A DNA stretch of 64,000 bases from Pardosa pseudoannulata (taxonomy: Eukaryota; Arthropoda; Arachnida; Araneae; Lycosidae), in contig CM063509.1 in the NCBI GenBank assembly GCA_032207245.1, forward strand, positions 703,774-767,773. The letters run 5' to 3'. This document shows positions 1 through 21,600 of the stretch, piece after piece; the first letter of the stretch is position 1, and the number at the start of each line of letters is the position of its first letter. The notes beneath the pieces were generated by a model. That model ran no database searches. It was not told the origin of the DNA and worked only from the letters and a program-made list of their open reading frames with translations. A program made the position numbers and the translations under genes.

Positions 1-345
1 TAAAGACGAAGAGATTGATACTATATTTATTATAATTCATTCTGTTTATAAGAGCAGAATCGCGAACGTGTTTATTTTCTGTAGTTGAATTTTGCGAATT
101 TTCCGCTGTTTTCGGAAATATACCCAAATAACTCCTCCATTTTCTGTTGAAACATGGAACAATGCATATCACCGTGTAGGTCTCTTAAAGACGAAGAGAT
201 TGATACTATATTTATTATAATTCATTCTGTTTATAAGAGCAGAATCGCGAACGTGTAAATTTTCTGTAGTTGAATTTTGCGAAATTTCCGCTGTTTTCGG
301 AAATATACCCAAATAACTCCTCCATTTTCTGTTGAAACATGGAAC

Positions 346-356
346 AATGCTGTTTA
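346..356 (+). repeat. Deletion joint in a satellite monomer
   Basis: The normal run GGAACAATGC is followed directly by TGTTTATAAG instead of ATATCACCGTG. About 70 bp of the next monomer (the GTCTTTTAAAGAC palindrome and following AT-rich part) is missing. The joint is a simple internal deletion. Confidence 0.85.
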
Positions 357-480
357 TAAGAGCAGAATCGCGAACGTGTTAATTTTCTGTAGTTGAATTT
401 TGCGAATTTTAAGATGTTTTCGGAAATATACCCAAATAACTCCTCCATTTTCTGTTGAAACATGGAACAATGCATATCAC

Positions 481-3400
481 CGTTTAGGTCTCTTAAAGAC
501 GAAGATATTGATACTATATTTATTATAATTCATTCTTTTTATAAGAGCAGAATCGCGAACGTGTAAATTTTCTGTAGTTGAATTTTGCGAATTTTCCGCT
601 GTTTTCCGAGATATATCAAAATAACTCCTCCAATTTCTGTTGAAACATGGATTAATGCATATCAGCGTGTAGGTCTTTTAAAGACGAAGAGATTGATACT
701 ATATTTATTATAATTCATTATGTTTATAAGAGCAGAATCGCGAACGTTTAAATTCTCTGTAGTTGAATATTGCGAATTTTCCGCTGTTTTCGGAAATATA
801 CCCAATTAACTCCTCCATTTTCTGTTGAAACATGGAATAATGCATATCAGCGTGTAGGTCTTTTAAAGACGAACAGATTGATACTATATTTATTATAATT
901 CATTATGTTTATAAGAGCAGAATCGCGAACGTTTAAATTTTCTGTAGTTGAATTTTGCGAATTTTCCGCTGTTTTCTTAAATATACCTAAATAACTCCTC
1001 CATTTTCTGTTGACACATGGAACAATGCTTATCACCGTGTGGGTCTTTTAAAAACGAAGAGATTGATACTATATTTATTATAATTCATTATGTTTATAAG
1101 AGCAGAATCGCGAACGTGTAAATTTTCTTTATTTTAATTTTGCGATTTTTCCGCTGTTTTTGGAAATATAAAAAAATAACACCTCAATTTAATGTTGAAA
1201 CATGGAACAATGCATATGACCGTGTAGGTCACTTAAAGACGAAGAGATTGATACTATATATATTATAATTCATTCTGTTTATAAGAGCAGAATCGCGAAC
1301 GTGTAAATTTTCTGTAGTTGAATTTTGCGAATTTTCCGCTGTTTTCGGAAATATACATAAATAACTCCTCCATTTTCTGTTGAAACATGGAACAATGCAT
1401 ATCACCGTGTATGTCTCTTAAAGACGAAGAGATTGATACTATATTTATTATAATTCATTCTGTTTATAAGAGCAGAATCGCGAACGTGTAAATTTTCTGT
1501 AGTTGAATTTTGCGAATTTTCCGCTGTTTTCGGAAATATACCCAAATAACTCCGCCATTTTCTGTTGAAACATGGAACAATGCATATCACCGTGTAGGTC
1601 TTTTAAAGACGAAGAGTTTGATACTATATTTTTTATAATTCATTATGTTTATAAGAGCAGAATCGCGAACGTGTAAATTTTCTGTAGTTGAATTTTGCGA
1701 ATTTTCCGCTGTTTTCGGAAATATACCCAAATAACTCCTCCATTTTCTGTTGAAACATGGAACAATGCATATCACCGTGTAGGTCTTTTAAAGTCGAAGG
1801 GATTGATACTATATTTATTATAATTCATTATGTTTATAAGAGCAGAATCGCGAACGTGTAAATTTTCCGTAGTTGAATTTTGCGAATTTTCCGCTGTTTT
1901 CGGAAATATACCCAAATAACTCCTCCATTTTCTGTTGAAACATGGAACAATGCATATCACCGTGTAGGTCTCTTAAAGACGAAGAGATTGATACTATATT
2001 TATTATAATTCATTCTGTTTATAAGAGCAGAATAACGAACGTGTAAATTTTCTGTAGTTGAATTTTGCGAATTTTCCGCTGTTTTCCGAAATATATCAAA
2101 ATAACTCCTCCATTTTCTGTTGAAACATGGAACAATGCATATCACCGTGTAGGTCTCTTAAAGACGAAGAGATTGATACTATATTTATTATAATTCATTC
2201 TTTTTATAAGAGCAGAATCGCGAACGTGTAAATTTTCTGTAGTTGAATTTTGCGAATTTTCCGCTGTTTTCCGAGATATATCAAAATAACTCCTCCAATT
2301 TCTGTTGAAACATGGATTAATGCATATCAGCGTGTAGGTCTTTTAAAGACGAAGAGATTGATACTATATTTATTATAATTCATTATGTTTATAAGAGCAG
2401 AATCGCGAACGTGTAAATTTTCTGTATTTGAATTTTGCTAATTTTCCGCTGTTTTCGGAAATATACACAATTAACTCCTCCATTTTCTGTTGAAACATGG
2501 AATAATGCATATCAGCGTGTAGGTCTTTTAAAGACGAACAGATTGATACTATATTTATTATAATTCATTATGTTTATAAGAGCAGAATCGCGAACGTTTA
2601 AATTCTCTGTAGTTGAATATTGCGAATTTTCCGCTGTTTTCTTAAATATACCTAAATAACTCCTCCATTTTCTGTTGACACATGGAACAATGCTTATCAC
2701 CGTGTGGGTCTTTTAAAAACGAAGAGATTGATACTATATTTATTATAATTCATTATGTTTATAAGAGCAGAATCGCGAACGTGTAAATTTTCTTTATTTT
2801 AATTTTGCGATTTTTCCGCTGTTTTTGGAAATATAAAAAAATAACACCTCAATTTAATGTTGAAACATGGAACAATGCATATGACCGTGTAGGTCACTTA
2901 AAGACGAAGAGATTGATACTATATATATTATAATTCATTCTGTTTATAAGATCAGAATCGCGAACGTGTGAATTTTCTGTAGTTGAATTTTGCGAATTTT
3001 CCGCTGTTTTCGGAAAGATACATAAATAACTCCTCCATTTTCTCTTGAAACATGGAACAATGCATATCACCGTGTATGTCTCTTAAAGACGAAGAGATTG
3101 ATACTATATTTATTATAATTCATTCTGTTTATAAGAGCAGAATCGCGAACGTGTAAATTTTCTGTAGTTGAATTTTGCGAATTTTCCGCTGTTTTCGGAA
3201 ATATACCCGAAAAGCTCCTCCATTTTCTGTTGAAACATGGAACATTGCATATCACCGTGTAGGTCTTTTAAAGTCGAAGGGATTCATACTATATTTATTA
3301 TAATTCATTACGTTTATAAGAGCAGAATCGCGAACGTGTAAATTTTCCGTAGTTGAATTTTGCGAATTTTCCGCTGTTTTCGGAAAGATACCCAAATAAC

Positions 3401-3810
3401 TCCTCCATTTTCTCTTGAAACATGGAACAATGCATATCACCGTGTATGTCTCTTAAAGACGAAGAGATTGATACTATATTTATTATAATTCATTCTGTTT
3501 ATAAGAGCAGAATAACGAACGTGTAAATTTTCTGTAGTTGAATTTTGCGAATTTTCCGCTGTTTTCCGAAATATATCAAAATAACTCCTCCATTTTCTGT
3601 TGAAACATGGAACAATGCATATCACCATGTAGGTCTTTTAAAAACGAAGTGATTGATACTATATTTATTATAATTCATTATGTTTATAAGAGCAGAATCG
3701 CGAACGTGTAAATTTTCTGTAGTTGAATTTTGCGAATTTTCCGCTGTTTTCGGAAATATACCCAAATAACTCCTCCATTTTCTGTTGAAACATGGAACAA
3801 TGCATATCAC
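481..3810 (+). repeat. Nine-monomer higher-order repeat (1665-bp offset), two copies
   Basis: Rare variants recur exactly 1665 bp (9 x 185) apart. GAACAGATTG is at 871 and 2536; the CCGAGATATATCA form with CTTTTTATAAG occurs in the monomers near 490 and 2155; the type-B monomer is near 1130 and 2795; and the TGTATGTCTCTT form is near 1408 and 3073. The first six monomers of the two copies correspond at this offset. After that the match shifts by one monomer: the AATAACGAAC plus CCGAAATATATCA unit is at about 1960 in copy 1 but about 3440 in copy 2, an offset of 8 monomers. This fits unequal exchange of single monomers after the 9-mer was duplicated. Confidence 0.8.
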
Positions 3811-4740
3811 CGTGTAGGTCTTTTAAAAACGAAGAGATTGATACTATATTTATTATAATTCATTATGTTTATAAGAGCAGAATCGCGAACGTGTAAATTT
3901 TCTGTAGTTGAATTTTGCGAATTTTCCACTTTTTTCGGAAATATACCCAAATAACTCCTCCATTTTCTGTTGAAACATGGAACATTGCATATTACCGTGT
4001 AGGTCTTTTAAAGACGAAGAGTTTGATACTATATTTTTTATAATTATGTTTATAAGAGAAGAATAGCGAACGTGTAAATTTTCTGTAGTTGAATTTTGCG
4101 AATTTTCCGCTGTTTTCGGAAATATACAGAAATAACTCCTCAATTTTCTGTTGAAACATGGAACAATGCATATCACAGTGTAGGTCTTTTAAAAACGAAA
4201 AGATTGATACTATATTTATTATAATTCATTATGTTTTTAAGAGCAGAATCGCGAACGTGTAAATTTTCTGTAGTTGAATTTTGCGAATTTTCCGCTGTTT
4301 TCGGAAATATACCCAAATAACTCCTCCATTTTCTGTTGAAACATGGATTAATGCATATCAGCGTGTAGGTCTTTTAAAGACGAAGAATTTGATACTATAT
4401 TTTTTATAATTTATTCTGTTTTTAAGAGCAGAATCGCGAACGTGTAAATTTTCTGTAGTTGAATTTTGCGAATTTTCCGCTGTTTTCGGAAATATACCCA
4501 AATAACTCCTCCATTTTCTGTTGAAACATGGAACATTGCATATCACCGTGTAGGTCTCTTAAAGACGAAGAGATTGATACTATATTTATTATAATTCATT
4601 TTGTTTATAAGAGCAGAATCGCGAACGTGTAAATTTTCTGTAGTTGAATTTTGCGAATTTTCCGCTGTTTTCGGAAATATACCCAAATAACTCCTCCATT
4701 TTCTGTTGAAACATGGAACAATGCATATCACCGTGTAGGT

Positions 4741-4945
4741 CTTTTAAACTGTTTTCCGAAATATACCCAAATAACTCTTATGTTTATAAGAGCAGAATCG
4801 CGAAAGTGTAAATTTTCTGTAGTTGAATTTTGCGAATTTTCCGCTGTTTTCGGAAATATACCCAAATAATTCCTCCATTTTCTGTTGAAACATGGAACAA
4901 TGCATATCACCGTGTAGGTCTTTTAAAGACGAAGAGATTCAATGC
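4741..4945 (+). repeat. Chimeric satellite monomers (module replacement)
   Basis: After AGGTCTTTTAAA the expected ACGAAGAGATTGATAC segment is replaced at 4749-4777 by a piece from elsewhere in the monomer (CTGTTTTCCG through AAATAACTC), which then joins TTATGTTTATAAG. A second break at about 4940 joins GAAGAGATTC to AATGCATATCAC, giving a monomer stub of about 35 bp. Confidence 0.85.
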
Positions 4946-5754
4946 ATATCACCGTGTAGGTCTTTTAAAGACGAAGAGATTGATACTATATTTATTATAA
5001 TTCATTACGTTTATAAGAGCAGAATCGCGAACGTGTAAATTTTCTGTAGTTGAATTTTGCGAATTTTCCGCTGTTTTCGGAAATATACCCAAATAACTCC
5101 TCCATTTTCTGTTGAAACATGGAACAATGCATATCACCGTGTAGGTCTCTTAAAGACGAAGAGATTGATACTATATTTATTATAATTCATTCTGTTTATA
5201 AGAGCAGAATCGCGAAAGTGTAAATTTTCTGTAGTTGAATTTTGCGAATTTTCCACTGTTTTCGGAAATATACGCAAATAACTCCTCCATTTTCTGTTGA
5301 AACATGGAACAATGCATATCACCGTGTAGGTCTCTTAAAGACGAAGAGATTGATACTATATTTCTTATAATTCATTCTGTTTATAAGAGCAGAATCGCGA
5401 ACGTGTAAATTTTCTGTAGTTGAATTTTGCGAATTTTCCGCTGTTTTCGGAAATATACCCAAATAACTCCTCCATTTTCTGTTGAAACATGGAACAATGC
5501 ATATCACCGTGTAGGTCTTTTAAAGACGAAGAGATTGATACTATATTTATTATAATTCATTACGTTTATAAGAGCAGAATCGCGAACGTGTAAATTTTCT
5601 GTAGTTGAATTTTGCGAATTTTCCGCTGTTTTCGGAAATATACCCAAATAACTCCTCCATTTTCTGTTGAAACATGGAACAATGCATATCACCGTGTAGG
5701 TCTTTTAAAGACGAAGGGAATGATACTATATTTATTATAATTCATTATGTTTAT

Positions 5755-5970
5755 AAGAGCAGATTGATACTATATATATTATAATTCATTCTGTTTATAA
5801 GAGCAGAATCGCGAACGTGTAAATTTTTGTAGTTGAATTTTGCGAATTTTCCGCTTTTTTCGGAAATATACCCAAATAACTCCTCCATTTTCTGTTGAAA
5901 CATGGAACATTGCATATTACCGTGTAGGTCTTTTCCGCTGTTTTCGGAAATATACCCAAATAACTCTATT
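5755..5970 (+). repeat. Rearranged satellite monomers
   Basis: At about 5761 AAGAGCAG joins ATTGATACTATA, returning to an earlier point of the monomer through a shared AG. At 5935-5966 the segment CCGCTG through AAATAACTC follows AGGTCTTTT directly and then joins TATTTTTTATAATTC. This is the same replacement class as at 4749-4777 and about 15999-16045. Confidence 0.85.
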
Positions 5971-6439
5971 TTTTATAATTCATTATGTTTATAAGAGCAG
6001 AATCGCGAACGTGTAAATTTTCTGTAGTTGAATTTTGCGAATTTTCCGCTGTTTTCGGAAATATACCCAAATAACTCCTCCATTTTCTGTTGAAACATGG
6101 AACAATGCATATCACCGTGTAGGTCTCTTAAAGACGAAGAGATTGATACTATATTTATTATAATTCATTGTGTTTATAAGAGCAGAATCGCGAAAGTGTA
6201 AATTTTCTGTAGTTGAATTTTGCGAATTTTCCGCTGTTTTCGAAATATACCCAAATAACTCCTCCATTTTCTGTTGAAACATGGAACAATGCATATCACC
6301 GTGTAGGTCTCTTAAAGACGAAGAGATTGATACTATATTTATTATAATTCATTCTGTTTATAAGAGCAGAATCGCGAAAGTGTAAATTTTCTGTAGTTGA
6401 ATTTTGCGAATTTTCCGCTGTTTTCGGAAATATACCCAA

Positions 6440-6505
6440 ATAACTCCTTATATTTATTATAATTCATTATGTTTATAAGAGCAGAATCGCGCCGTGTAGG
6501 TCTTT
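6440..6505 (+). repeat. Two rearrangement joints in the satellite
   Basis: At about 6448 AAATAACTCC runs into TTATATTTATTATAATTC, skipping the end of one monomer and the start of the next. At about 6491 CAGAATCGCG joins CCGTGTAGG, skipping most of a monomer. Both joints share only a base or a few bases with the lost sequence. Confidence 0.85.
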
Positions 6506-7089
6506 TAAAGACGAAGAGATTGATACTATATTTATTATAATTCATTATGTTTATAAGAGCAGAATCGCGAACGTGTAAATTTTCTGTAGTTGAATTTTGC
6601 GAATTTTTCCGCTGTTTTCGGAAATATACCCAAATAACTCCTCCATTTTCTGTTGAAACATGGAACAATGCATATCACCGTGTAGGTCTCTTAAAGACGA
6701 AGAGATTGATTCTATATTTATTATAATTCATTCTGTTTATAAGAGCAGAATCGCGAAAGTGTAAATTTTCTGTAGTTGAATTTTGCGAATTTTCCGCTGT
6801 TTTCGGAAATATACCCAAATAACTAATTCATTTTCTGTTGAAACATGGAACAATGCATATCACCGTTTAGGTCTCTTAAAGACGAAGAGATTGATACTAT
6901 ATTTATTATAATTCATTCTGTTTATAAGAGCAGAATCGCGAACGTGTAAATTTTCTGTAGTTGAATTTTGCGAATTTTCCGCTGTTTTCGGAAATATACC
7001 CAAATAACTCCTCCATTTTCTGTTGAAACATGGAACAATGCATATCACCGTGTAGGTCTTTTAAAGACGAAGAGATTGATACTATATTT

Positions 7090-7165
7090 ATTATATGTAG
7101 GTCTTTTAAAGACGAAGAGATTGATACTATATATTATAATTCATTCTGTTTATAAGAATTTTCTG
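7090..7165 (+). repeat. Rearranged satellite monomers
   Basis: ATTTATTATAT joins GTAGGTCTTTT at about 7096, restarting the monomer early. At about 7158 TTTATAAG joins AATTTTCTGTAG, which deletes the GAGCAGAATCGCGAACG segment. Confidence 0.85.
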
Positions 7166-9072
7166 TAGTTGAATTTTGCGAATTTTCCGCTGTTTTCGGA
7201 AATATACCCAAATAACTAATTCATTTTCTGTTGAAACATGGAACAATGCATATCACCGTTTAGGTCTCTTAAAGACGAAGAGATTGATACTATATTTATT
7301 ATAATTCATTCTGTTTATAAGAGCAGAATCGCGAAAGTGTAAATTTTCTGTAGTTGAATTTTGCGAATTTTCCGCTGTTTTCGGAAATATACCCAAATAA
7401 CTCCTCCATTTTCTGTTGAAACATGGAACAATGCATATCACCGTGTAGGTCTCTTAAAGACGAAGAGATTGATACTATATTTATTATAATTCATTATGTT
7501 TATAAGAGCAGAATCGCGAACGTGTAAATTTTCTGTAGTTGAATTTTGCGAATTTTCCGCTGTTTTCGGAAATATACCCAAATAACTCCTCCATTTTCTG
7601 TTGAAACATGGAACAATGCATATCACCGTGTAGGTCTTTTAAAGACGAAGAGATTGATACTATATTTATTATAATTCATTTGTTTATAAGAGCAGAATCG
7701 CGAACGTGTAAATTTTCTGTAGTTGAATTTTGCGAATTTTCCGCTGTTTTCGGAAATATACCCAAATAACTCCTCCATTTTCTGTTGAAACATGGAACAA
7801 TGCATATCACCGTGTAGGTCTTTTAAAGACGAAGAGATTGATACTATATTTATTATAATTCAATACGTTTATAAGAGCAGAATCGCGAACGTGTAAATTT
7901 TCTGTAGTTGAATTTTGCGAATTTTCCGCTGTTTTCGGAAATATACCCAAATAACTCCTCCATTTTCTGTTGAAACATGGAACAATGCATAGCACCGTGT
8001 AGGTCTCTTAAAGACGAAGAGATTGATACTATATTTATTATAATTCATTACGTTTATAAGAGCAGAATCGCGAACGTGTAAATTTTCTGTAGTTGAATTT
8101 TGCGAATTTTCCGCTGTTTTCGGAAATATACCCAAAAAACTCCTCCATTTTCTGTTGAAACATGGAACAATGCATATCACCGTGTAGGTCTTTTAAAGAC
8201 GAAGAGATTGATACTATATTTATTATAATTCATTCTGTTTATAAGAGCAGAATCGCGAACGTGTAAATTTTCTGTAGTTGAATTTTGCGAATTTTCCGCT
8301 GTTTTCGGAAATATACCCAAATAACTCCTCCATTTTCTGTTGAAACATGGAACAATGCATATCACCGTGTAGGTCTTTTAAAGACGAAGAGATTGATACT
8401 ATATTTATTATAATTCATTATGTTTATAAGAGCAGAATCGCGAACGTGTAAATTTTCTGTAGTTGAATTTTGCGAATTTTCCGCTGTTTTCGGAAATATA
8501 CCCAAATAACTCCTCCATTTTCTGTTGAAACATGGAACAATGCATATCACCGTGTAGGTCTTTTAAAGACGAAGAGATTGATACTATATTTATTATAATT
8601 CATTATGTTTATAAGAGCAGAATCGCGAACGTGTAAATTTTCTGTAGTTGAATTTTGCGAATTTTCCGCTGTTTTCGGAAATATACCCAAATAACTCCTC
8701 CATTTTCTGTTGAAACATGGAACAATGCATATCACCGTGTAGGTCTCTTAAAGACGAAGAGATTGATACTATATTTATTATAATTCATTCTGTTTATAAG
8801 AGCAGAATCGCGAACGTGTAAATTTTCTGTAGTTTAATTTTGCGAATTTTCCGCTGTTTTCGGAAATATACCCAAATAACACCTCCATTTTCTGTTGAAA
8901 CATGGAACAATGCATATCACCGTGTAGGTCTTTTAAAGACGAAGAGATTGATACTATATTTATTATAATTCATTCTGTTTATAAGAGCAGAATCGCGAAC
9001 GTGTAAATTTTCTGTAGTTGAATTTTGCGAATGTTCCGCTGTTTTCTAAAATATACCCAAATAACTCCTCCA

Positions 9073-9308
9073 CATTCTTGAAACAGAAATGAAGCACAGA
9101 AACTCGGCTTTCTGTTTCCGGTATTTAATATCACATAACGTATCCTCGGACAGATTACGCTCAATGCAGACATCTGTTGTCTTTTCTGCTTGTTTGTTGC
9201 TTGGTACAGTTGGTATTTTCAAATATGTGAAATCTATGGAAAACGAAAGAGAATGGCCATTTAGTTTGCATTTTTTAACAATGCTTTCTTCCGTCAGAAT
9301 GGAAGAAA
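9073..9308. other. Single-copy flank at the satellite/transposon junction
   Basis: Sequence changes abruptly from satellite to non-repetitive DNA with somewhat higher GC than the rest of the non-satellite part. The + strand is open from 9089 to 9337 (82 codons) and the minus strand is open from 9405 to 9046 without a convincing start, the latter running into the satellite. I recognise neither translation. If the Harbinger element starts here, this would be its 5' terminal region, but I saw no clear terminal inverted repeat or target duplication. It may equally be host DNA. Confidence 0.5.
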
Positions 9309-9414
9309 ATGACAAAAAAGCACAGATTTTTTCGTAAGTTTCGAGAGAGAGAAAATACAATCCATAACACCCTGGTTGGATCTTCGTACGATTGATCAGG
9401 AGTTTTTATTTTGA
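9309..9414 (+). pseudogene. Possible first-exon remnant of the Harbinger transposase
   Basis: From an ATG at 9309 the frame reads a basic stretch containing HRFFRKFRERE (9324-9356), then HNTLV, before a TGA at 9393-9395. Neighbouring frames give DQEFLF just afterwards. In PIF/Harbinger transposases the N-terminal part typically has an aromatic-basic stretch followed by an ERE-like motif and a His-x-Leu-Val-like segment, then an acidic and Phe-rich stretch. The order here fits but needs a frameshift near 9390. A consensus-like splice donor GTAAGT lies at 9415, with another at 9334. The assignment rests on resemblance to family patterns and on its position upstream of firmer transposase sequence; the start is uncertain. 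Confidence 0.4.
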
Positions 9415-9511
9415 GTAAGTATACAATTCTTTTAAAAAAAAATGTTCTCTATTTTTTATATTTCGCCATAGAAATTTATAACACACTAATATTGTACACT
9501 AATATTGCTTT

Positions 9512-9630
9512 ATGAGGATGACGCCAGATGTGTTTGACGAAATTTAAAACTGTAACCCCCCTCATCGAAAAGAAAAATACATATTGGAGAAGAATATACC
9601 AGCAGATGCCAGACTTGCATTGACATTAAT
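9512..9630 (+). pseudogene. Frame-damaged 5' exon of the Harbinger transposase
   Basis: Three consecutive blocks in shifting frames read as the N-terminal part of a PIF/Harbinger transposase. They are RMTPDVFDEI (9515-9544, ended by TAA at 9545), TPLIEKKNTYWRR (9555-9593) and NIPADARLALTL (9593-9628). This is the conserved stretch before the helix-turn-helix (x-RMTP-x-x-F-D-E, then the RLALTLRFLATG run), and the next family residues, RFLATG, are found at the start of the exon at 10340. The spacing between blocks fits three single-base losses, two between 9544 and 9555 and one near 9593, which together restore the original frame. No GT donor sits at the expected boundary after 9630; the sequence there is AATTATATTT. 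It is either a decayed exon or intact sequence carrying homopolymer-type sequencing errors. Confidence 0.7.
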
Positions 9631-10339
9631 TATATTTGTGTAGTTTTATGCTATGCAATAATTTCACAACTTTTTATTTCTTAGAAACTGTGAGATTTAA
9701 ATTAAAACAAACAATATTACATCTTGCATTATATAAAATATTTAATTTTAATATTAACCCTATATAATTACAATGAGAGTATATTTAGAGAATAATACAT
9801 TTGCTGTTTTTTAAAGTTATTTTAATTAAATAAAAAAAAAATGATCATTTTGTTTTTAAAATGGTAAGGAGCTGATAATGGAAACTAATATGAAATACAT
9901 TATTTTGATTCATTCTGAATGCTTAAACATGAATCAATAAAATATTTCAGAGTTTAAAACCCTGAGATAAACTGCACAATATCTATGGTTTCTATAGTAT
10001 CTTTGTAAAAAATTATCTTGTTATAAGCAATACTGCTTCCAACCATAAAAAATAAATTATCTCCCCCATTTAAATTCTAGAATATTTTGTAATGAATTAT
10101 GATAGCATTTACTTATTAATGATAAAGAGCTAATAATATAAACTAAAAACCAATGCACATTAGTTGGATTTATTATGTATGCTTAAGTTGTGGCTTAAAC
10201 ATGAATCAGAATCAAATTCAAATATTTCACTTTAAACTCTGAGATAAATTGCACAAATTATCTGTTTCTATAGTAATTCAATATATTCATATATCTTTGT
10301 AGAAATTTTATTTTAATTAGATGTTAATATGATTTACAG
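9631..10339 (+). other. Putative transposase intron, AT-rich, no gene
   Basis: About 700 bp of AT-rich sequence separates the two transposase segments, with stops in all + frames; one at 10314-10316 lies in frame just before the downstream exon. The 3' end, ATATGATTTACAG at 10327-10339, is a good splice acceptor, and splicing there would give a phase-2 junction inside the Arg codon of RFLATG. The donor side is not convincing. The interval also contains a diverged internal duplication, listed separately. Confidence 0.55.
9861..10310 (+). repeat. Diverged tandem duplication inside the putative intron
   Basis: Two related stretches, about 9861-10018 and 10119-10310, share blocks in the same order. 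Examples are the ATGGTAAGGAGCTGATAAT and ATGATAAAGAGCTAATAAT forms, GCTTAAACATGAATCA, and CCTGAGATAAACTGCACAA against CTCTGAGATAAATTGCACAA followed by TTTCTATAGTA. Offsets run from 258 bp to 272 bp because of indels. The copies are clearly older than the satellite homogenisation. No coding capacity is seen. Confidence 0.7.
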
Positions 10340-11288
10340 ATTTCTTGCAACTGGGGAAACATACAGAAGCCTCAGTTTTGCCTTCAGGATTGGAAGGCAA
10401 ACAATTCAAAAAATTGTGCCAGAAACTTGTGAGGCAATATGGAACTCCTTTAAATTAAAATATATGCCATTTCCTAAACATGCAGAGGAGTGGAAAAAAA
10501 TTGCTGCAAATTTTAATGAGAAGTGGCAACTTCCACACTGTTGTGGAAGTATTGATGGCAAACATGTCATAAGAGAAAGCCCAAAAAACTCTGGAAGCCT
10601 GAATTTTAATTATAAAGGGACTTTCAGCAGTGTTCTATTAGCCCTATCTGATGCAAATTATAAATTTATAATGGTTGACTATGGGCATTATGGTAGTGAA
10701 TCTGATGGTGGAATTTTTAGAAAAACCTTATTTGGTAACTTAGTTATAAATAATGAGTTAAAATTTCCACCACCAGATTTATTACCAAATTCTAGCAAAT
10801 TATGCCCTTATTTTATTGTTGGAGATGAGGCATTCCCACTGAGGAATAACCTCCTGAGACCCTATCCCAGACGTTCCCATTTTTTATCTGAGGAAAAGAT
10901 TTATAACTACAGGTTAAGTAGAGGCAGGCGTGTTGTGGAAAATGCTTTTGGTATATTAGCAGCACGATTTAGAATTTTCAGACGACCACTGAATTATAGT
11001 GATTCTGCTGCTAAAAGCATGGTGCTTGCCTCTTGCATTCTCCACAACATGCTGATAGAAAAATCAGATGCTTACTGCCCTACTGACTTTGTAGATTATG
11101 AAGATAAATATCACCAATTACATAGGGGAACATGGAGGAATGATGGGGACAAAGTGTCTCTTAAAAAACTTAGCAGCAATATGTATCAGAAAGAAGCAAA
11201 ATTGCTACGAGACAATTATAAAAATTACTTGTGCAACGAAGGTGCAGTTCCGTGGCAATATAAAGCAACTCAGCCGCAGTGCTTATAG
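10340..11288 (+). CDS. PIF/Harbinger transposase, catalytic exon (DDE nuclease)
   Basis: This is the main exon of a HARBI1/ALP1-like DDE transposase. The open frame can be read from an ATG at 10329 (319 codons), but that ATG is probably intronic because TTTACAG at 10333-10339 is a splice acceptor and the family motif RFLATG spans the junction. Numbering from 10329, residues 4-40 hold the helix-turn-helix part (RFLATGETYRSLSFAFRIGR). GSIDGKHV carries Asp76, VDYGHYGSESDGGIF carries Asp126, VGDEAFPL carries Asp166 and RVVENAFGILAARFRIFRRP carries Glu204. Asp76, Glu204 and one of Asp126 or Asp166 form the expected catalytic triad. CILHNML and a C-terminal GAVPWQ are also typical of the family, so the 3' end is complete. 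The exon has no internal stop or frameshift, in contrast to the damaged 5' exons. It should act in the nucleus, excising and inserting its element. Cell function is doubtful because the 5' part is broken. Confidence 0.92.
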
Positions 11289-12101
11289 ATGAATATTTTT
11301 TCTTTTATTTGGTACGAAGAGATTGATACTATATTTATTATAATTCATTATGTTTATATTTCATATTTAATTATACTATATTTATTATAATTCATTATGT
11401 TTATAAGGCATATTATAAACATTTAATTTTAATTGTGTAAATATTAACTTTCTTCTTAATGCAGCTGCATCTTATGTTTAATTTAACGAAGAGTTTGATA
11501 CTATATTTTTTATAATTTATTCTGTTTATAAGAACTTGTATTGTTTTCTGATTCAGCCTTTGGACCCTGACTTTATATATATAAATTAGGTCTTTTAAAG
11601 ACGAAGGGATTGATTCTATATTTTCTATAATTCATTATGTTTATAAGATGTCTCTGTAAATTTGTCCAGCCACAAAATCTCAGATTTGAAGGAATGTTTT
11701 TTTATATTTTTGTGTGATATATATAACAAAAGTATTTCATTAAAGACGAAGATTGATACTATATTTTTTATAATTCATTATGTTTATAAGAGCATTTTTT
11801 AAAGAAAAGATATGATTAAAAAATATTTTAATAAAAGTATTAAAACAACATATGCTTGTAAATATATTTTGATTTCATACTACTAACATAAAATAATAAA
11901 TTTTCACATCAATTTGGATCTTGACTTTGCTGTTTATATATATAAATTATTACACCTACAATGTCTCTGTTAATTTGTACAGCCACAAAATCTCAGATTT
12001 GAAGGAATGTAATTCATTATGTTTATAAGAGCAGATGTGTGATATAAATTAATAAAAATATTTCATAACTCTGTTTTCCGAAATATGTCAAAATAACTCC
12101 T
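11289..12101 (+). repeat. Transposon spacer peppered with satellite patches
   Basis: Beginning 25 bp after the transposase stop, fragments of the 185-bp satellite are embedded in other AT-rich sequence. The patches are at 11314-11358, 11373-11407, 11486-11533, 11587-11648, 11741-11794, 12010-12035 and 12071-12101. Six of the seven come from the same part of the monomer, between GTCTTTTAAAG and TTTATAAGAGCAG, all in forward orientation; the last is the CTGTTTTCCG to AACTCC part. The other sequence belongs to the ~300-bp unit listed next. No gene is seen. Patch edges can be wrong by a few bases because of shared bases at the joints. Confidence 0.85.
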
Positions 12102-12780
12102 ATTAAAACAACATATGCTTGTAAATATATTTTGATTTCATACTACTAACATAAAATAATAAATTTTCACATCAATTTGGATCTTGACTTTGCTGTTTAT
12201 ATATAAAATTACACCTACAATGTCTCTGTTAATTTGTACAGCCACAAAATCTCAGATTTGAAGGAATGTTTATTTAGTAATGTTTGTTATATTTTTGTGT
12301 GATATAAATTAATAAAAATATTTCATAACTGTATAACTGTTCTTCTTTGGTTTAATTTTTTTAAAGAAAAGATATGATTAAAAAATATTTTAATAAAAGT
12401 ATTAAAACAACATATGCTTGTAAATATATTTTGATTTCATACTACTAACATAAAATAATAAATTTTCACATCAATTTGGATCTTGACTTTGCTGTTTATA
12501 TATATAAATTATTACACCTACAATGTCTCTGTTAATGTACAGCCACAAAATCTCAGATTTGAAGGAATGTTTATTTAGTAATGTTTGTTATATTTTGTGT
12601 GATATAAATTAATAAAAATATTTCATAACTGTATAACTGTCTTCTTTGGTTTAATTTTTTTAAAGAAAAGATATGATTAAAAAAATATTTTAATAAAGTA
12701 TTAAAACAACATATGCTTGTAAAATATTTTGATTTCATACTACTAACATAAAATAATAAATTTTGCATAAAATCAAAATA
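11540..12780 (+). repeat. ~300-bp tandem unit, about four copies
   Basis: The word CAGCCACAAAATCTCAGATT occurs at 11667, 11980, 12239 and 12540, giving offsets of 313, 259 and 301 bp. Around it, the copies share GGATCTTGACTTTGCTG, ATTACACCTACAATGTCTCT, GTGTGATATAAATTAATAAA, AAAGAAAAGATATGATTA and ACAACATATGCTTGTAAATA. The two downstream copies are nearly intact and resemble each other closely. The two upstream copies have internal stretches exchanged for satellite sequence, which explains the unequal offsets. No coding capacity; the 65-codon minus-strand frame at 12571-12768 is low-complexity. Confidence 0.85.
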
Positions 12781-13194
12781 GTATTACTAGTATAATGATT
12801 CATCATTTTATTATAAACAATGTTCTGTTGAAAAATATTAAATCTAGCAGTAATAAATGTATTGAAATTACAGGTATTAAGTCCTGGTGCTTTTAAGTCC
12901 TGTACATGTTTGTAGTTAGATGCTATTGCATATATAACTATTTATTTTTAAAAGGATAACATATTTGCAGTAAACTATGTTCAGAAATAAATCAATTACA
13001 AAGTAGAAAAAAAATATATGAAATTAAAATATTTCTTTACTGAAAGTTTCTTTCTTTTCTGTAATAAGATAAAGTAAAAATAATGACCCTTTTTTAAAGT
13101 TAATGCATTAACAGAACCTCTAACATTTGTAAAGAAATAAGCATAAAGAAATACATAAGAAATTATTTTATTTTGCTGTTTCTCTTGATCTAAT
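12781..13194. other. AT-rich non-coding stretch, 3' side of the minus-strand gene
   Basis: About 410 bp of AT-rich sequence with no open frame of note, no satellite fragment and no RNA gene that I can see. From the minus-strand gene's viewpoint this is its 3' untranslated or downstream region, so the transposase and this gene end tail to tail. Confidence 0.6.
13167..13172 (-). promoter_or_regulatory. Candidate polyadenylation signal for the minus-strand gene
   Basis: Read on the minus strand, AATAAA occurs about 22 bp after the stop codon at 13195. Position and sequence suit a polyadenylation signal, but such hexamers are frequent in AT-rich DNA. Confidence 0.35.
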
Positions 13195-13423
13195 TCAAAT
13201 TTTGAATAATATTTTCAATTGAATTTTAGCTTCTCGCCTTCTTTTTTTGGACAAGTCTCGCAGCCTGCAAGAGAGAAGTTCACAGAACTTGCCTGCTGTG
13301 TCCTCTTCAGGCTTTTTTTTAAAATAGCTTGAAATTGTTCTCGTTGTTTCCAACAGCTGGGTTGAGAAAGAGCTTGAACTGGGATCTTCCGATCTCTTCC
13401 TCTTACCCAGATATTTAGTGGAT
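13195..13423 (-). CDS. BESS-like last exon, probable Harbinger accessory protein
   Basis: The minus strand reads 75 codons after a splice-acceptor-like GATTTTTAG whose AG is at 13425-13424, in the same phase 2 as the transposase junction. The product starts STKYLGKRKRSEDP, with a nuclear-localisation-like KRKR. It is followed by a Ser/Thr-rich linker and ends with GKFCELLSCRLRDLSKKRRR plus a lysine/leucine tail. The end matches the pattern of BESS motifs and of C-termini of MADF or Myb/SANT-like proteins: Phe, Leu-Leu, Leu-x-x-Leu, a basic run, then alternating hydrophobics. Harbinger elements usually carry such a second gene, whose product binds the transposase and DNA. The local base composition is less AT-rich than the flanks, as for coding DNA. 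The DNA-binding N-terminal exons were not found in the rearranged sequence above 13423, so the gene looks incomplete. A host MADF gene is the alternative. Confidence 0.6.
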
Positions 13424-13469
13424 CTAAAAATCAAAAACTTTATTAGTGACGCATGTAGGAAAAAGTGTG

Positions 13470-13515
<46 letters not shown>
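13470..13515. repeat. (AT)n microsatellite
   Basis: About 46 bp of alternating A and T with one interruption (ATATAAATAT). It lies just upstream of the minus-strand BESS-like exon, in its presumed intron, and produces the Tyr-Ile run seen when that strand is translated. Confidence 0.95.
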
Positions 13516-13516
<1 letters not shown>

Positions 13517-13660
13517 TCATATAAAGTGGACACTGTGACTATTTATGTTGGTAACATTAGTATTAGTTACTTTAATATTTATAAACATAGACTTCTTTAG
13601 TTTCAAATTAAATTTTTTTTCTAACATACTTAAAAGTTTTCTGGGTTTTTTTTTTATTTT
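13516..13660. other. AT-rich stretch ending in a splice-acceptor-like tract
   Basis: No satellite and no convincing open frame. The last 16 bases, a run of T followed by ATTTTAG (up to 13660), form a good + strand splice acceptor directly before the exon-like 40-bp repeat at 13661. Confidence 0.5.
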
Positions 13661-13700
13661 AGAGTATAATGACAAGAAGCATCAGATATTCTACAATGAT
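13661..13700 (+). pseudogene. Exon-like fragment, copy 1 of a 40-bp repeat
   Basis: The 40 bp are identical to 13902-13941. Read on the + strand from the acceptor they can encode YNDKKHQIFYND, which has the look of protein-coding sequence but which I cannot assign to a family. Copy 1 runs straight into satellite sequence at about 13700. A related downstream piece, CATCATATACAATTTTGAAA at 13723-13742, reads on as a short open stretch. The fragment may be part of a host gene exon or of the missing accessory gene. Confidence 0.4.
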
Positions 13701-13901
13701 TTTAAAGACGAAGAGATTGATACATCATATACAATTTTGAAAATTTAAGAAACACAAATGTGTTTTGAAACTCACTGTTGATCGCGAACGTGTAAATTTT
13801 CTGTAGTTGAATTTTGCGAAAAGGTAAATTTTCTGTAGTTGAATTTTGCGAATAATTTTTTTTCGATACTATATTTATTATAATTCATTATGTTTATAAG
13901 T

Positions 13902-13962
13902 AGAGTATAATGACAAGAAGCATCAGATATTCTACAATGATCCAAGTGTTTTACACACTTTT
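13902..13962 (+). pseudogene. Exon-like fragment, copy 2 of a 40-bp repeat
   Basis: The first 40 bp equal 13661-13700. Copy 2 continues further, encoding about eight more residues (PSVLHTF) before satellite sequence takes over at about 13963. After that satellite patch ends at about 14029, CTGGATGATAGCATCATATA resumes the non-satellite reading, and CATCATATACAATTTT (14040-14055) again matches copy 1. So one original sequence was duplicated and both copies were interrupted by satellite at different points. Confidence 0.45.
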
Positions 13963-14944
13963 AAATTTTGCGAATTTTCCGCTGTTTTCGGAAATATACC
14001 CAAATAACTCCTCCATTTTCTGTTGAAACTGGATGATAGCATCATATACAATTTTTAAAGACGAAGAGATTGATACTATATTTATTATAATTCATTATGT
14101 TTATAAGAGCAGAATCGCGAACGTGTAAATATATAATATAAATAAAACATCGCTGTTTTCGGAAATATACCCAAATAACTCCATTGATACTATATTTATT
14201 ATAATTCATTATGTTTATAATTTGAAATGCAATGTGATTTATTAAATGCAAATAACTACAACACTTCTAAATAATTTAAATAAATTTACTTCCAGAATCT
14301 GGATACTCAATTATTAATTCATACAAAAAACAATAAATTCCGCTGTTTTCGGAAATATACCCAAATAACTCCTCCATTTTCTGTTGATTAGAATTAAATT
14401 TTCTGTATTTTAATTTTGCGATGCTGATTCCTTTAGCGAATTTTCCGCTGTTTTTGGAAATATACCTTTACTATATTTATTATAATTCATTATGTTTATA
14501 AGAGCAGAATCGATAAGAGCAAATGCACATCTTCTGTAGTTGAATTTTGCGAATTTTTCCGCTGTTTTCGGAAATATACCCAAATAACCGTATCACAATT
14601 CGCGAAAGTGTAAATTTTTTTTTTTTTTTATTTTGCGATTTTTCCGTTGTTTTTGGAAGTATAACCAAATAACTCCTCAATTTACTGTTGAAACATTTTC
14701 AATATTTTTGATAAGATATTTCTTCGTGTTAAAATTTACAGCTTCTTTTAATGAAAGCTTACAACAACTGATAATTTATTATAATTCATTATGTTTATAA
14801 GATCATAAGATTCATGCAAACAAGTAGGTCTTTTAAAGACGAAGAGATTGATACTATATTTATTATAATTCTGGCCACTTAGGTATATATATATCTGCAC
14901 TTGCAGCTCCACTGTACGAATTTTCTTTTGTTTTTTTTTTCTCT

Positions 14945-15212
14945 GTATTTTCTTTATTTTAATTTTGCGATTTTTTTTCCGCTTTGTTTTAGGAAATATA
15001 ACCCAAATAACACCTCAATTTTAATGTTGAAACATGGAACCAAATGCAGTGACCGTGTGGTCACTTAAAGACGAAGAGATTTGAGACTATATCGTATTAT
15101 AATTCATTCTGTTTATAAGAGCAGAATCGCGAACGTGTGAATTTTCTGTAGTGAATTTTGCGAATTTTCCGCTGTTTTCGAGAAGATTACATAAATAACT
15201 CTCCATTTTCTC
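14945..15212 (+). repeat. Indel-rich satellite copy (type-B then type-A)
   Basis: About one and a half monomers with an unusually high density of single-base insertions and deletions, for example GGAAATATAACCC, ATGGAACCAAATGC, GAGATTTGAGAC and TATATCGTATTATAATTC. Neighbouring copies seldom show such indels. The piece starts with the type-B variant (TTTATTTTAATTTTGCG) and continues with TAAATAACTC. It could be the oldest satellite at the array edge or uncorrected read error. Confidence 0.8.
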
Positions 15213-15330
15213 ATTAAATGATGACATGCTTTAACAATATAGCCAGAATGCATATCACCGTGTAGGTCTCCTAAAGACGATCACAGAACGGAAAACGTCG
15301 ACAGAAACAGAAAAAGTTCAACATTTTCTT

Positions 15331-17719
15331 GTAGGTCTTTTAAAGACGAAGAGATTGATCCATTTTCTGTTGAAACATGGAACAATGCATATCACCGTGT
15401 AGGTCTTTTAAAGACGAAGAGATTGATACTATATTTATTATAATTCATTCCAAATAACTCCTCCATTTTCTGTTGTGAATTTTCTGTAGTTGAATTTTGC
15501 GAATTTTCCGCTGTTTTCGGAAATATACCCAAATAACTCCTCCATTTTCTGTTGAAACACGGAACAATGCATATCACCGTGTAGGTCTCTTAAAGACGAA
15601 GAGATTGATACTATATTTATTATAATTCATTTTGTTTATAAGAGCAGAATCGCGAACGTGTAAATTTTCTTTATTTTAATTTTGCGAATTTTCCGCTGTT
15701 TTCGGAAATATACCCAAATAACTCCTCCATTTTCTGTTGAAACATGGAACAATGCATATCACCGTGTAGGTCTTTTAAAGACGAAGAGTTTGATACTATA
15801 TTTTTTATAATTCATTATGTTTATAAGAGCAGAATAGCGAACGTGTAAATTTTCTGTAGTTGAATTTTGCGAATTTTCCTTTCGTGTAAATTTTCTGTAG
15901 TTGAATTTTGCGAATTTTCCGCTGTTTTCGGAAATATACCCAAATAACTCCTCCATTTTCTGTTGAAACATGGAACAATGCATATCACCGTGTAGGTCTT
16001 TTTTGCGAATTTTCCGCTGTTTTCGGAAATATACCCAAATAACTCTTATAATTCATTCTGTTTATAAGAGCAGAATCGCAAACGTGTAAATTTTCTGTAG
16101 TTGAATTTTGCGAATTTTCCGCTGTTTTCGGAAATATACCCAAATAACTCCTCCATTTTCTCTTGAAACATGGAACAATGCATATCACCGTGTAGGTCTT
16201 TTAAAGACGAAGAGATTGATACTATATTTATTATAATTCATTATGTTTATAAAGAGATTGATACTATATTTATTATAATTCATTCTGTTTATAAGAGCAG
16301 AATAACGAACGTGTAAATTTTCTGTAGTTGAATTTTGCGAATTTTCCGCTGTTTTCCGAAATATATCAAAATAACTCCTCCATTTTCTGTTGAAACATGG
16401 AACAATGCATTTTCCGCTGTTTTCGGAAATATACCCAAATAACACCGTGTAGGTCTTTTAAAGACGAAGAGATTGATACTATATTTATTATAATTCATTC
16501 TGTTTATAAGAGCAGAATCGCGAACGTGTAAATTTGCTGTAGTTGAATTTTGCGAATTTTCCGCTGTTCTCGGAAATATAAGAGATTGATACTATATTTA
16601 TTATAATTCATTCTGTTTATAAGAGCAGAATCGCCATCATGTAAATTTTCTGTAGTTGAATTTTGCGAATTTTCCGCTGTTTTCGGAAATATACCCAAAT
16701 AACTCCTCCATTTTCTGTTGAAACATGGAACAATGCATATCACCGTGTAGGTCTTTTAAAAACGAAGAGATTGATACTATATTTATTATAATTCATTATG
16801 TTTATAAGAGCAGAATCGCGAACGTGTAAATTTTCTGTAGTTGAATTTTGCGAATTTTCCGCTGTTTTCGGAAATATACCCAAATAACTCCTCCATTTTC
16901 TGTTGAAACATGGAACAATGTGTAAATTTTCTGTAGTTGAATTTTGCGAATTTTCCGCTGTTTTTGGAAATATACCCAAATAACACATCAATTTAATGTT
17001 GAAACATGGAACAATGCATATCACCGTGTAGGTCTCTTAAAGACGAGCAGAATCGCGAACGTGTAAATTTTCTGTAGTTGAATTTTGCGAATTTTCCGCT
17101 GTTTTCGGAAATATACCCAAATAACTCCTCCATTTTCTGTTGAAACATGGAAAATTGCATATCACCGTGTAGGTCTTTTAAAGACGAAGAGTTTGATACT
17201 ATATTTTTTATAATTCATTATGTTTATAAGAGCAGAATCGCGAACGTGTAAATTTTCTGTAGTTGAATTTTGCGAATTTTCCGCTGTTTTCGGAAATATA
17301 CCCAAATAACACCTCCATTTTCTGTTGAAACATGGAACAATGCATATCACCGTGTAGGTCTCTTAAAGACGAAGAGATTGATACTATATTTTTTATAATT
17401 CATTTTGTTTATAAGAGCAGAATCGCGAACGTGTGAATTTTCTGTAGTTGAATTTTGCGAATTTTCCGCTGTTTTCGGAAATATACCCAAATAACTCCTC
17501 CATTTTCTGTTGAAACATGGAACAATGCATATCACCGTGTAGGTCTTTTAAAGACGAAGAGATTGACACTATATTTATTATAATTCATTCTGTTTATAAG
17601 AGCAGAATCGCGAAAGTGTATATTTTTTTTTTTATTTTGCGATTTTTCCGTTGTTTTTGGAAGTATAACCAAATAACTCCTCAATTTAATGTTGAAACAT
17701 GGAACAATGCATATCACCG
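15331..17719 (+). repeat. Scrambled left edge of satellite block 2
   Basis: Nearly every monomer here is truncated, chimeric or of odd length. Examples are GATTGATC joined to CATTTTCTGTTG (15359), TTCCTTTCGTGTAAATTTTC (about 15879), TTTATAAAGAGATTGATAC (about 16250), ACAATGCATTTTCCGCTG (about 16410) and AAATATAAGAGATTGATAC (about 16578). At about 15999-16045 the TTGCG to AACTC module sits directly after AGGTCTTTT and joins TTATAATTC. The monomer near 17615-17690 is a rare type-B form, with CCGTTG and GGAAGTATAACC, shared with 14601-14696. No gene is present. Confidence 0.9.
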
Positions 17720-18594
17720 TTTAGGTTTCTTAAAGACGAAGATATATTTATTATAATTCATTATGTTTATAAGAGCAGAATCGCGAACGTGTAAATTTTC
17801 TGTAGTTGAATTTTGCGAATTTTCCGCTGTTTTCGGAAATATACCCAAATAACTCCTCCATTTTCTGTTGAAACATGGAACAATGCATATCACCGTGTAG
17901 GTCTTTTAAAAACGAAGAGATTGATACTATATTTATTATAATTCATTATGTTTATAAGAGCAGAATCGCGAACGTGTAAATTTTCTGTAGTTGAATTTTG
18001 CGAATTTTCCGCTGTTTTCGGAAATATACCCAAATAACTCCCTATATTTATTATAATTGATTATGTTTAGAGATTGATACTATATTTATTATAATTCATT
18101 CTGTTTATAAGAGCAGAATCGCGAAAGTGTAAATTTTCTGTAGTTGAATTTTGCGAATTTTCCGCTGTTTTCGGAAATATACCCAAATAACTCCTCCATT
18201 TTCTGTTGAAACATGGAACAATGCATATCACCGTGTAGGTCTCTTAAAGACGAAGAGATTGATACTATATTTATTATAATTCATTCTGTTTATAAGAGCA
18301 GAATCGCGAAAGTGTAAATTTTCTGTAGTTGAATTTTGCGAATTTTCCGCTGTTTTCGGAACTATACCCAAATAACTCCTCCATTTTCTGTTGAAACATG
18401 GAACAATGCATATCACCGTGTAGGTCTTTTAAAGACGAAGAGATTGATACTATATTTATTATAATTCATTCTGTTTATAAGAGCAGAATCGCGAACGTGT
18501 AAATTTTCTGTAGTTGAATTTTGCGAATTTTCCGCTGTTTTCGGAAATATACCCAAACAACTCCTGCATTTTCTGTTGAAACATGGAACAATGC

Positions 18595-18630
18595 ATATCA
18601 CCGTGTAGGTCTGTTGAAACATGGAACAAT
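18595..18630 (+). repeat. Short partial duplication in the satellite
   Basis: CACCGTGTAGGTCT is followed by GTTGAAACATGGAACAATGC and a second CACCGTGTAGGTCT. The tail of the monomer (about 36 bp) is repeated. The joint shares GGTCTGTT-like bases, consistent with slippage or template switching. Confidence 0.8.
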
Positions 18631-21600
18631 GCATATCACCGTGTAGGTCTCTTAAAGACGAAGAGATTGATACTATATTTATTATAATTCATTCTGTTTA
18701 TAAGAGCAGAATCGCGAAAGTGTAAATTTTCTGTAGTTGAATTTTGCGAATTTTCCGGAACGTGTAAATTTTCTTTATTTTAATTTTGCGATTTTTTCCG
18801 TCCATTTTCTGTTGAAACATGGAACAATGCATATCACCGTGTAGGTCTCTTAAAGACGAAGAGATTGATACTATATTTATTATAATTCATTCTGTTTATA
18901 AGAGCAGAATCGCGAAAGTGTAAATTTTCTGTAGTTGAATTTTGCGAATTTTCCGCTGTTTTCGGAAATATACCCAAATAACTCCTCCATTTTCTGTTGA
19001 AACATGGCACAATGCATATCACCGTGTAGGTCTCTTAAAGACGAAGAGATTGATACTATATTTATTATAATTCATTCTGTTTATAAGAGCAGAATCGCGA
19101 AAGTGTAAATTTTCTGTAGTTGAATTTTGCGAATTTTCCGCTGTTTTCGGAAATATACCCAAATAACTCCTCCATTTTCTGTTGAAACATGGAACAATGC
19201 ATATCACCGTGTAGGTCTTTTAAAGACCAAGAGATTGATACTATATTTATTATAATTCATTATGTTTATAAGAGCAGAATCGCGAACGTGTAAATTTTCT
19301 GTAGTTGAATTTTGCGAATTTTCCGCTGTTTTCGGAAATATACCCAAATAACTCCTCCATTTTCTGTTGAAACATGGAACAATGCATATCACCGTGTAGG
19401 TCTTTTAAAGACGAAGAGATTGATACTATATTTATTATAATTCATTATGTTTATAAGAGCAGAATCGCGAACGTGTAAATTTTCTGTAGTTGAATTTTGC
19501 GAATTTTCCGCTGTTTTCGGAAATATACCCAAATAACTCCTCCATTTTCTGTTGAAACATGGAACAATGCATATCACCGTGTAGGTCTTTTAAAGACGAA
19601 GAGATTGATACTATATTTAGAATCGCGAACGTGTAAATTTTCTGTAGTTGAATTTTGCGAATTTTCCGCTGTTTTCGGAAATATACCCAAATAACTCCTC
19701 CATTTTCTGTTGAAACATGGAACAATGCATATCACCGTGTAGGTCTTTTAAAGACGAAGAGATTGATACTATATTTATTATAATTCATTATGTTTATAAG
19801 AGCAGAATCGCGAACGTGTAAATTTTCTGTAGTTGAATTTTGCGAATTTTCCGCTGTTTTCGGAAATATACAAATAACTCCTCCATTTTCTGTTGAAACA
19901 TGGAACAATGCATATCACCGTGTAGGTCTTTTAAAGACGAAGAGATTGATACTATATTTATTATAATTCATTATGTTTATAAGAGCAGAATCGCGAACGT
20001 GTAAATTTTCTGTAGTTGAATTTTGCGAATTTTCCGCTGTTTTCGGAAATATACCCAAATAACTCCTCCATTTTCTGTTGAAACATGGAACAATGCATAT
20101 CACCGTGTAGGTCTCTTAAAGACGAAGAGATTGATACTATATTTATTATAATTCATTCTGTTTATAAGAGCAGAATCGCGAACGTGTAAATTTTCTGTAG
20201 TTGAATTTTGCGAATTTTCCGCTGTTTTCCGAAATATATCAAAATAACTCCTCCATTTTCTGTTGAAACATGGAACAATGCATATCACCGTGTAGGTCTT
20301 TTAAAGACGAAGGGATTGATACTATATTTATTATAATTCATTATGTTTATAAGAGCAGAATCGCGAACGTGTAAATTTTCTGTAGTTGAATTTTGCGAAT
20401 TTTCCGCTGTTTTCGGAAATATACCTAAATAACTCCTCCATTTTCTGTTGAAACATGGAACAATGCATATCACCGTGTAGGTCTTTTAAAGACGAAGAGA
20501 TTGATACTATATTTATTATAATTCATTCTGTTTATAAGAGCAGAATCGCGAACGTGTAAATTTTCTTTATTTTAATTTTGCGATTTTTCCGCTGTTTTTG
20601 GAAATATACAAAAATAACTCCTCAATTTAATGTTGAAACATGGAACAATGCATATCACCGTGTATGTCTCTTAAAGACGAAGAGATTGATACTATATTTA
20701 TTATAATTCATTCTGTTTATAAGAGCAGAATCGCGAACGTGTAAATTTTCTGTAGTTGAATTTTGCGAATTTTCCGCTGTTTTCGGAAATATACCTAAAT
20801 AACTCCTCCATTTTCTGTTGAAACATGGAACAATGCATATCACCGTGTAGGTCTTTTAAAGACGAAGAGATTGATACTATATTTATTATAATTCATTCTG
20901 TTTATAAGAGCAGAATCGCGAACGTGTAAATTTTCTGTAGTTGAATTTTGCGAATTTTCCGCTGTTTTCGGAAATATACCCAAATAACTCCTCCATTTTC
21001 TGTTGAAACATGGAACAATGCATATCACCGTGTAGGTCTTTTAAAGACGAAGAGATTGATACTATATTTATTATAATTCATTATGTTTATAAGAGCAGAA
21101 TCGCGAACATGTAAATTTTCTGTAGTTGAATTTTGCGAATTTTCCGCTGTTTTCGGAAATATACCCAAATAACTCCTCCATTTTCTGTTGAAACATGGAA
21201 CAATGCATATCACCGTGTAGGTCTTTTAAAGACGAAGAATTTGATACTATATTTTTTATAATTTATTTCTGTTTTATAAAGAGAAGCAGAATCGCGAACG
21301 TGTAAATTTTCTGTAGTTGAATTTTGCGAATTTTCCGCTGTTTTCGGAAATATACCCAAATAACTCCTCCATTTTCTGTTGAAACATGGAACAATGCATA
21401 TCACCCTGTAGGTCTTTTAAAGACGAAGAGATTGATACTATATTTATTATAATTCATTATGTTTATAAGAGCAGAATCGCGAACGTGTAAATTTTCTGTA
21501 GTTGAATTTTGCGAATTTTCCGCTGTTTTCGGAAATATACCTTAATAACTCCTCCATTTTCTGTTGAAACATGGAACAATGCATATCACCGTGTAGGTCT

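Follow-up and report, generated by a model that had tools for sequence, protein, structure and literature searches.

The window, that is, the whole 64-kb stretch of DNA that was analysed, consists mostly of an AT-rich satellite with a 185-bp monomer, which forms two arrays on the plus strand and a third one in the reverse orientation (Table 1). The orientation changes across a 100-N gap, and this reversal may be a true inversion or may reflect faulty scaffolding. The two plus-strand arrays enclose a block of non-satellite DNA, in which an ORF for a PIF/Harbinger-type transposase was found; among the 120 listed of its 6037 relatives, the best was from the scorpion Centruroides vittatus (66% identity), and an arachnid is thus the likely host. 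A 5' coding part (9509-9628) contains a stop and a middle that matches the Centruroides protein poorly, and may, as judged by eye, contain small frame shifts. About 700 bp of AT-rich DNA separates this part from the main ORF, and a diverged internal repeat was observed there at 9921-10334 (a 16-bp word at 9921 and 10193, and a 12-bp word at 9988 and 10264). PIF/Harbinger transposons have terminal inverted repeats and a 3-bp target duplication. No inverted pair was detected within 9086-15400 at E 0.001, the best inverted match between 9000-10400 and 11288-15400 being AT-rich with an E-value of 0.047.

On the 3' side of the transposase ORF, a 299-bp unit is repeated head to tail. The first-pass annotation had counted four copies of about 300 bp; the count is five (c1-c5), of which c1 is diverged and c5 is truncated. 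Copies c2, c3, and c5 had no substitutions relative to c4 in about 609 aligned bases and differed from it by about eight distinct indels, and c1 differed from c3 by five substitutions in about 90 aligned bases. A sixth copy, much more diverged, may lie at 12765-12900, the score of which was reached by 3 of 500 shuffles. No relatives were found for the 299-bp unit in plasmid records, for a 37-base satellite word in bacterial/archaeal or viral contigs, or for the transposase in viral contigs; these collections are without animal genomes, and the results have little weight.

Table 1. Positions of the repeats, patches, and coding region in the window (satellite coordinates refer to the 185-bp monomer)
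Feature	Position	Strand	Description
Satellite array, left	1-9085	+	185-bp monomer; 11 phase jumps
Non-satellite block between the two plus-strand arrays	9086-13699		
PIF/Harbinger-type transposase ORF	10329-11288	+	319 aa; DDE_Tnp_4, 2.1e-25
Patch P1	11314-11358	+	satellite 89-133; 45/45 to consensus, 71.4 bits
Patch P2	11373-11407	+	satellite 101-135; 35/35 to consensus, 55.9 bits
Patch P3	11486-11533	+	satellite 89-136; 91.7% to consensus; 48/48 to one monomer ending at 37841
Unit copy c1	11534-11739	+	diverged, interrupted by P4; 11534-11586 and 11649-11739 match the unit (0/500 shuffles each)
Patch P4, inside c1	11587-11648	+	satellite 75-136; 85.2 bits; three edits from nearest monomers
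Patch P5, between c1 and c2	11740-11794	+	satellite 83-139; 74.4 bits; two edits from nearest monomers
Unit copy c2	11795-12070	+	interrupted by P6; zero substitutions vs c4
Patch P6, inside c2	12010-12035	+	satellite 116-141; 26/26, 42.0 bits
Patch P7, between c2 and c3	12071-12101	+	satellite 4-34; 87.1% to consensus; 31/31 to one inverted-array monomer at 59213
Unit copy c3	12101-12356	+	unpatched inside; zero substitutions, five indels vs c4
Unit copy c4	12357-12655	+	intact 299-bp reference
Unit copy c5	12656-12764	+	truncated; zero substitutions, three indels vs c4
Mixed border	13700-15358	+	18 satellite segments interleaved with other DNA
Satellite array, right	15359-56218	+	18 phase jumps before 20 kb (15359-20000), 2 after (20000-56218)
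Gap of 100 N	56219-56318		array orientation reverses across the gap
Satellite array, inverted	56319-64000	reversed	0 phase jumps

Satellite patches in and around the unit copies

The patches were defined as BLAST matches to the 185-bp array consensus with a reporting cut-off of E 0.01. Seven segments (26-62 bp; 37.4-85.2 bits) were obtained within about 790 bp (11314-12101), all on the plus strand. Among 300 dinucleotide shuffles of 9086-13699, the highest score was 34.3 bits and none attained 37, and on the minus strand of the real block no satellite match exceeded 28.1 bits. Every satellite piece reported by BLAST in 8501-20000 was on the plus strand, in the same orientation as the flanking arrays, and the capture of free fragments would not give such a pattern.

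According to the first-pass annotation, satellite replaces unit sequence at 12010-12035, 12071-12101, and 11741-11794, and is not plainly inserted there. Comparison with the intact copies bore out both statements and added a fourth site at 11589-11648. The unit lost 12 bp and gained 60 bp of satellite at P4 (11589-11648); the corresponding values were 30 bp and 54 bp at P5 (11741-11794), 26 bp and 25 bp at P6 (12010-12035), and 69 bp and 30 bp at P7 (12071-12101). Thus, the target sequence is missing from all four of the seven patches at which replacement can be read, the unit flanks are kept at each of them, and the lost and inserted lengths are similar at one (26 bp for 25 bp). For P1-P3 there is no clean copy for comparison, and their surroundings (11289-11313 and 11408-11485) showed no unit match above shuffles, the scores being reached by 435 and 163 of 500, respectively. 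In the simpler reading of the aligned copies, the satellite would be the derived state, because c3, c4, and, in part, c1 keep unit words at the 12010 site, and because the words lost at the 11740 and 12071 patches are still present where c3 meets c4 and c4 meets c5.

Many monomers are identical to P1, P2, and P6 over the length of the patch. P3 and P7 each have four differences from the consensus and are nevertheless exact copies of a single monomer, in the right array for P3 and in the inverted array for P7, the latter being also one edit from five other monomers. Departures of the patches from the consensus are therefore, for the most part, variants already present in the donors, of which there were several. 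The two rare monomers lie tens of kb from the patches (37841 and 59213), and other copies of them may exist outside the window. Copying of the patches from one another was also considered and rejected, since none of them reproduces another in full; for the nearest pairs (P2-P5, one edit; P2-P1 and P6-P5, two edits each), a partial copy with chance extension is possible. The divergence of the patches follows that of the host copy: c2 has no substitutions and P6 and P7, which touch it, are exact, and c1 has five and its P4 is three edits off. The patches and their host copies may therefore have aged together, the numbers being small. Consecutive satellite pieces are out of register with one another: of 26 pairs, 4 came within 15 bp of register, and chance would give 4.4. 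Among the patches, the P6-P7 pair alone is near register (12 bp off). A single satellite read misaligned across the block was rejected as the source of the pieces on account of this random register.

Joins, array ends, and the favoured part of the satellite

The possible overlap between unit and satellite at the eight readable joins was 2, 1, 1, 0, 1, 0, 0, and 1 bp (mean, 0.75); at the right join of P5, where the reference ended, the overlap of 0 was read directly from the sequence. Random joins of unit to satellite gave a sum of 7.0, the observed sum being 6, and 65% of the random sets were equal or better, eight joins being too few to reveal a 1-bp excess of overlap. The words AATGT, CAT, and TTTTTT, which had been regarded as microhomology at the edges, are words of the unit only, and the satellite does not have them at those joins. 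Similarity between the lost and the inserted DNA was evaluated as the fraction of 2,000 random block segments that were at least as good (0.50 for P6, 0.26 for P7, 0.60 for P5, and 0.74 for P4) and as the corresponding fraction when all 299 unit positions were used instead (0.61, 0.20, 0.79, and 0.85, respectively). Homology-guided gene conversion was rejected because the similarity of donor and replaced DNA was not above the null in any of the four tracts. The exchange thus seems to have been guided by neither microhomology nor similarity, and a template switch is possible if a single base, or no base at all, is sufficient for it.

Phase jumps in the arrays were found with a Viterbi walk along the array strand. 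They crowd the array ends beside the block and are nearly gone deeper in the arrays (2 in 36 kb and 0 in 7.7 kb). Joins between satellite and satellite are blunt (mean overlap, 0.80 for 35 joins and 0.78 at random). Blunt joins are thus found both at the patches and inside the array, and one homology-free process could serve both; with the ends of the arrays so rich in jumps, the patches appear as the outer fringe of a rearrangement that affects the array ends in general and not as an event private to the unit. Away from the border, the array differs from the consensus by substitutions and few indels. No piece of the block was found in the arrays, in which there is no non-satellite stretch of at least 8 bp in 1-9085 or 15359-64000, the N run excepted; the visible traffic is one-way, from satellite to block.

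The region from 13700 to 15699 is rich in small indels. Its satellite pieces include perfect words (50/50 at 14338-14387) beside an indel-rich piece at 14947-15218 (at best 25 edits in 272). A perfect direct duplication of 40-41 bp (13660-13700 and 13901-13941) brackets an insert of about 200 bp, which is composed of four satellite pieces and 57 bp and 11 bp of other DNA; this looks like the fill-in of a staggered break, with filler.

Six of the seven patches were derived from satellite 75-141, and their right ends lie between 133 and 141. Such clustering of right ends in a 10-bp window was found in none of 3,000 random draws, and when the border pieces were included, 9 of 25 right ends fell in such a window (p 0.0003); the p-values are optimistic, as the cluster was noticed before testing. 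The left ends of the patches were not clustered (p 0.20), nor were the array-jump ends alone (p 0.31). When the ends of the patches and border pieces were compared with the array-jump ends by rotation, the agreement was suggestive for starts (7/184 rotations) and weak for ends (26/184); with the seven patches alone, the values were 20/184 and 25/184, respectively. No significant fold was detected in a search for a hairpin in the favoured part of the satellite (z -1.45 and 0.33), and no CENP-B-box-like motif with one mismatch or fewer was found in the window, where 6.3 were expected by chance.

Explanations of the exchange

The explanation that we favour, at slightly better than even confidence, is that the patches are separate scars of deletion plus filler (delins), left by the repair of breaks or stalled forks beside the satellite array. 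In each event, 12-69 bp of unit DNA (where readable) would be lost, the array would serve as template for 25-60 bp of satellite filler of unchanged polarity, and the repair would rejoin the unit near the point of departure with an overlap of 0-2 bp. Polymerase-theta-like end joining and fork jumping to a displaced sister array are the candidate pathways. The exchanges, their blunt joins and fixed polarity, the variety of donors, and the rearranged array ends are seen directly in the sequence; the pathway, the order of events, and the correctness of the assembly are inferred. The four exchanges read against intact copies, the exact correspondence of P3 and P7 to single rare monomers, and the 40-41 bp duplication argue for the delins reading, as do the uniform strand of all pieces, the blunt joins at patches and within the array, the crowding of phase jumps beside the block, and the parallel divergence of patches and host copies. 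Against it, the inserts are 25-62 bp long and the arrays lie more than 1 kb away, which is outside the usual range of POLQ inserts; the right ends are clustered at satellite 133-141, which plain filler does not predict; and the arrays hold no block DNA, though pairing with a displaced sister would allow exchange in both directions.

The main rival, which we regard as unlikely but take seriously, is a fault of assembly or consensus, in which reads of satellite and block were mixed at the border of the array and the mosaic is unreal. The indel-only differences of c2, c3, and c5 from c4 resemble residual long-read error; the border mixes perfect words with the piece of 25 edits in 272 in an indel-rich environment; the 5' part of the transposase has its stop and badly matching middle; the gap and the array reversal are present in the same scaffold; and all pieces share the orientation of the array. 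However, slippage in AT-rich DNA also yields indel-only differences, as does real decay, and at a distance from the border the array mostly shows substitutions with few indels. Such a fault is also difficult to reconcile with pieces that are out of register, with lost and inserted DNA that are dissimilar and joined without a shared anchor word, and with donors that are distinct rare monomer variants. The satellite words could alternatively be ancestral in the unit and have been lost by c3 and c4, but this is scarcely credible: the 12010 site holds unit words and not satellite in c3, c4, and part of c1, and the two satellite-bearing unit borders carry different parts of the satellite (83-139 and 4-34).

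Replacement with the flanks kept is what microhomology-guided template switching or patchy gene conversion, as advanced in the first-pass annotation, would produce; with overlap at the chance level and lost DNA unlike the inserted satellite, we consider this very improbable. Somewhat less improbable, though still doubtful, is cut-and-replace, in which an activity resembling transposition would carry short segments of the satellite as units; this has been suggested for satellites of molluscs and nematodes. The origin of six of seven patches in satellite 75-141, the position of their right ends (133-141; 0/3,000 draws, in a test chosen post hoc), and the adjoining DDE transposase are consistent with it, and similar events have been published (PMC5139131, PMC3694981). 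On the other hand, the left ends are unclustered, the lengths agree in one of four cases only, a target duplication is impossible at P4-P7, where target DNA is lost, and the favoured part has neither a significant fold nor, anywhere in the window, a CENP-B-box-like motif within one mismatch. There is a slim chance that the part of about 65 bp (approximately 75-141) is a small mobile unit, orientation-locked and homology-free, which repeatedly swaps into neighbouring DNA; if so, it would be the outcome about which the oyster study only speculated (PMC5139131), and in the present case the sister copies still show what stood there before.

The exit of satellite fragments from arrays is usually guessed from end products in which the ancestral state is missing. 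Here, clean and patched copies stand side by side, and the loss, the gain, the donor, and the joins can be read base by base. If the mosaic is confirmed by reads, it would argue that homology-free repair rather than gene conversion erodes satellite borders, and the direction of exchange at array edges would become testable.

Comparison with known systems

A literature search covering titles and abstracts, with most subscription papers outside its scope, yielded no report that we recognised in which satellite patches take the place of pieces of a tandem repeat and the ancestral state is readable. The deletion-plus-filler reading can be compared with polymerase-theta delins, which likewise combine a deletion with a templated insert and have an overlap of about one base (PMC5068794, PMC2895639); at the present joins, the mean of 0.75 bp is not above chance. 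In C. elegans, one nucleotide primes POLQ delins, few inserts are reverse complements, the inserts are mostly shorter than 25 bp, and the templates, where mapped, are mostly a few bases away (PMC5068794); the mostly direct orientation is shared with the patches. The complex inserts of Drosophila with wild-type mus308 occur in both orientations and average 5.5 nucleotides (PMC2895639), whereas no reported piece is inverted in the present case. Unlike these published events, the present patches number seven in 790 bp, with the arrays more than 1 kb away (PMC5068794, PMC2895639).

Abrupt joins between unrelated repeats, attributed to illegitimate recombination, are also known from the satellites of cactophilic Drosophila (Kuhn et al. 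2009); there, switches from array to array are reported to have occurred via tracts of local similarity, whereas short patches were exchanged here. In Meloidogyne, as in the window, part of one repeat has given way to a second repeat that is highly divergent from it; there, whole monomers are swapped at a shared 17-bp CENP-B-box-like motif, whereas here fragments are exchanged and the joins share 0-2 bp (PMC3694981).

The flanks of the oyster satellite Cg170, where "cut and replace" was described for pieces of 19-64 bp beside arrays, offer the nearest published parallel (PMC5139131). There, as in the window, satellite pieces alternate with unrelated DNA near arrays and among DNA transposons, and their ends are abrupt, with replacement instead of insertion and with no motif described at the sites (PMC5139131). 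In Cg170, however, it is parts of satellite monomers that have given way to unrelated DNA, leaving array-continuous remnants, whereas here satellite replaces parts of another repeat; the pieces are not in-register remnants of monomers, the register being random, the lost and inserted lengths are similar in one of four cases, and clean copies reveal the earlier state (PMC5139131). The oyster authors only speculated on the invasion of other sequences by excised pieces (PMC5139131). By analogy, the patches described here may be viewed as the mirror image of the cut-and-replace events at the edges of mollusc satellites.
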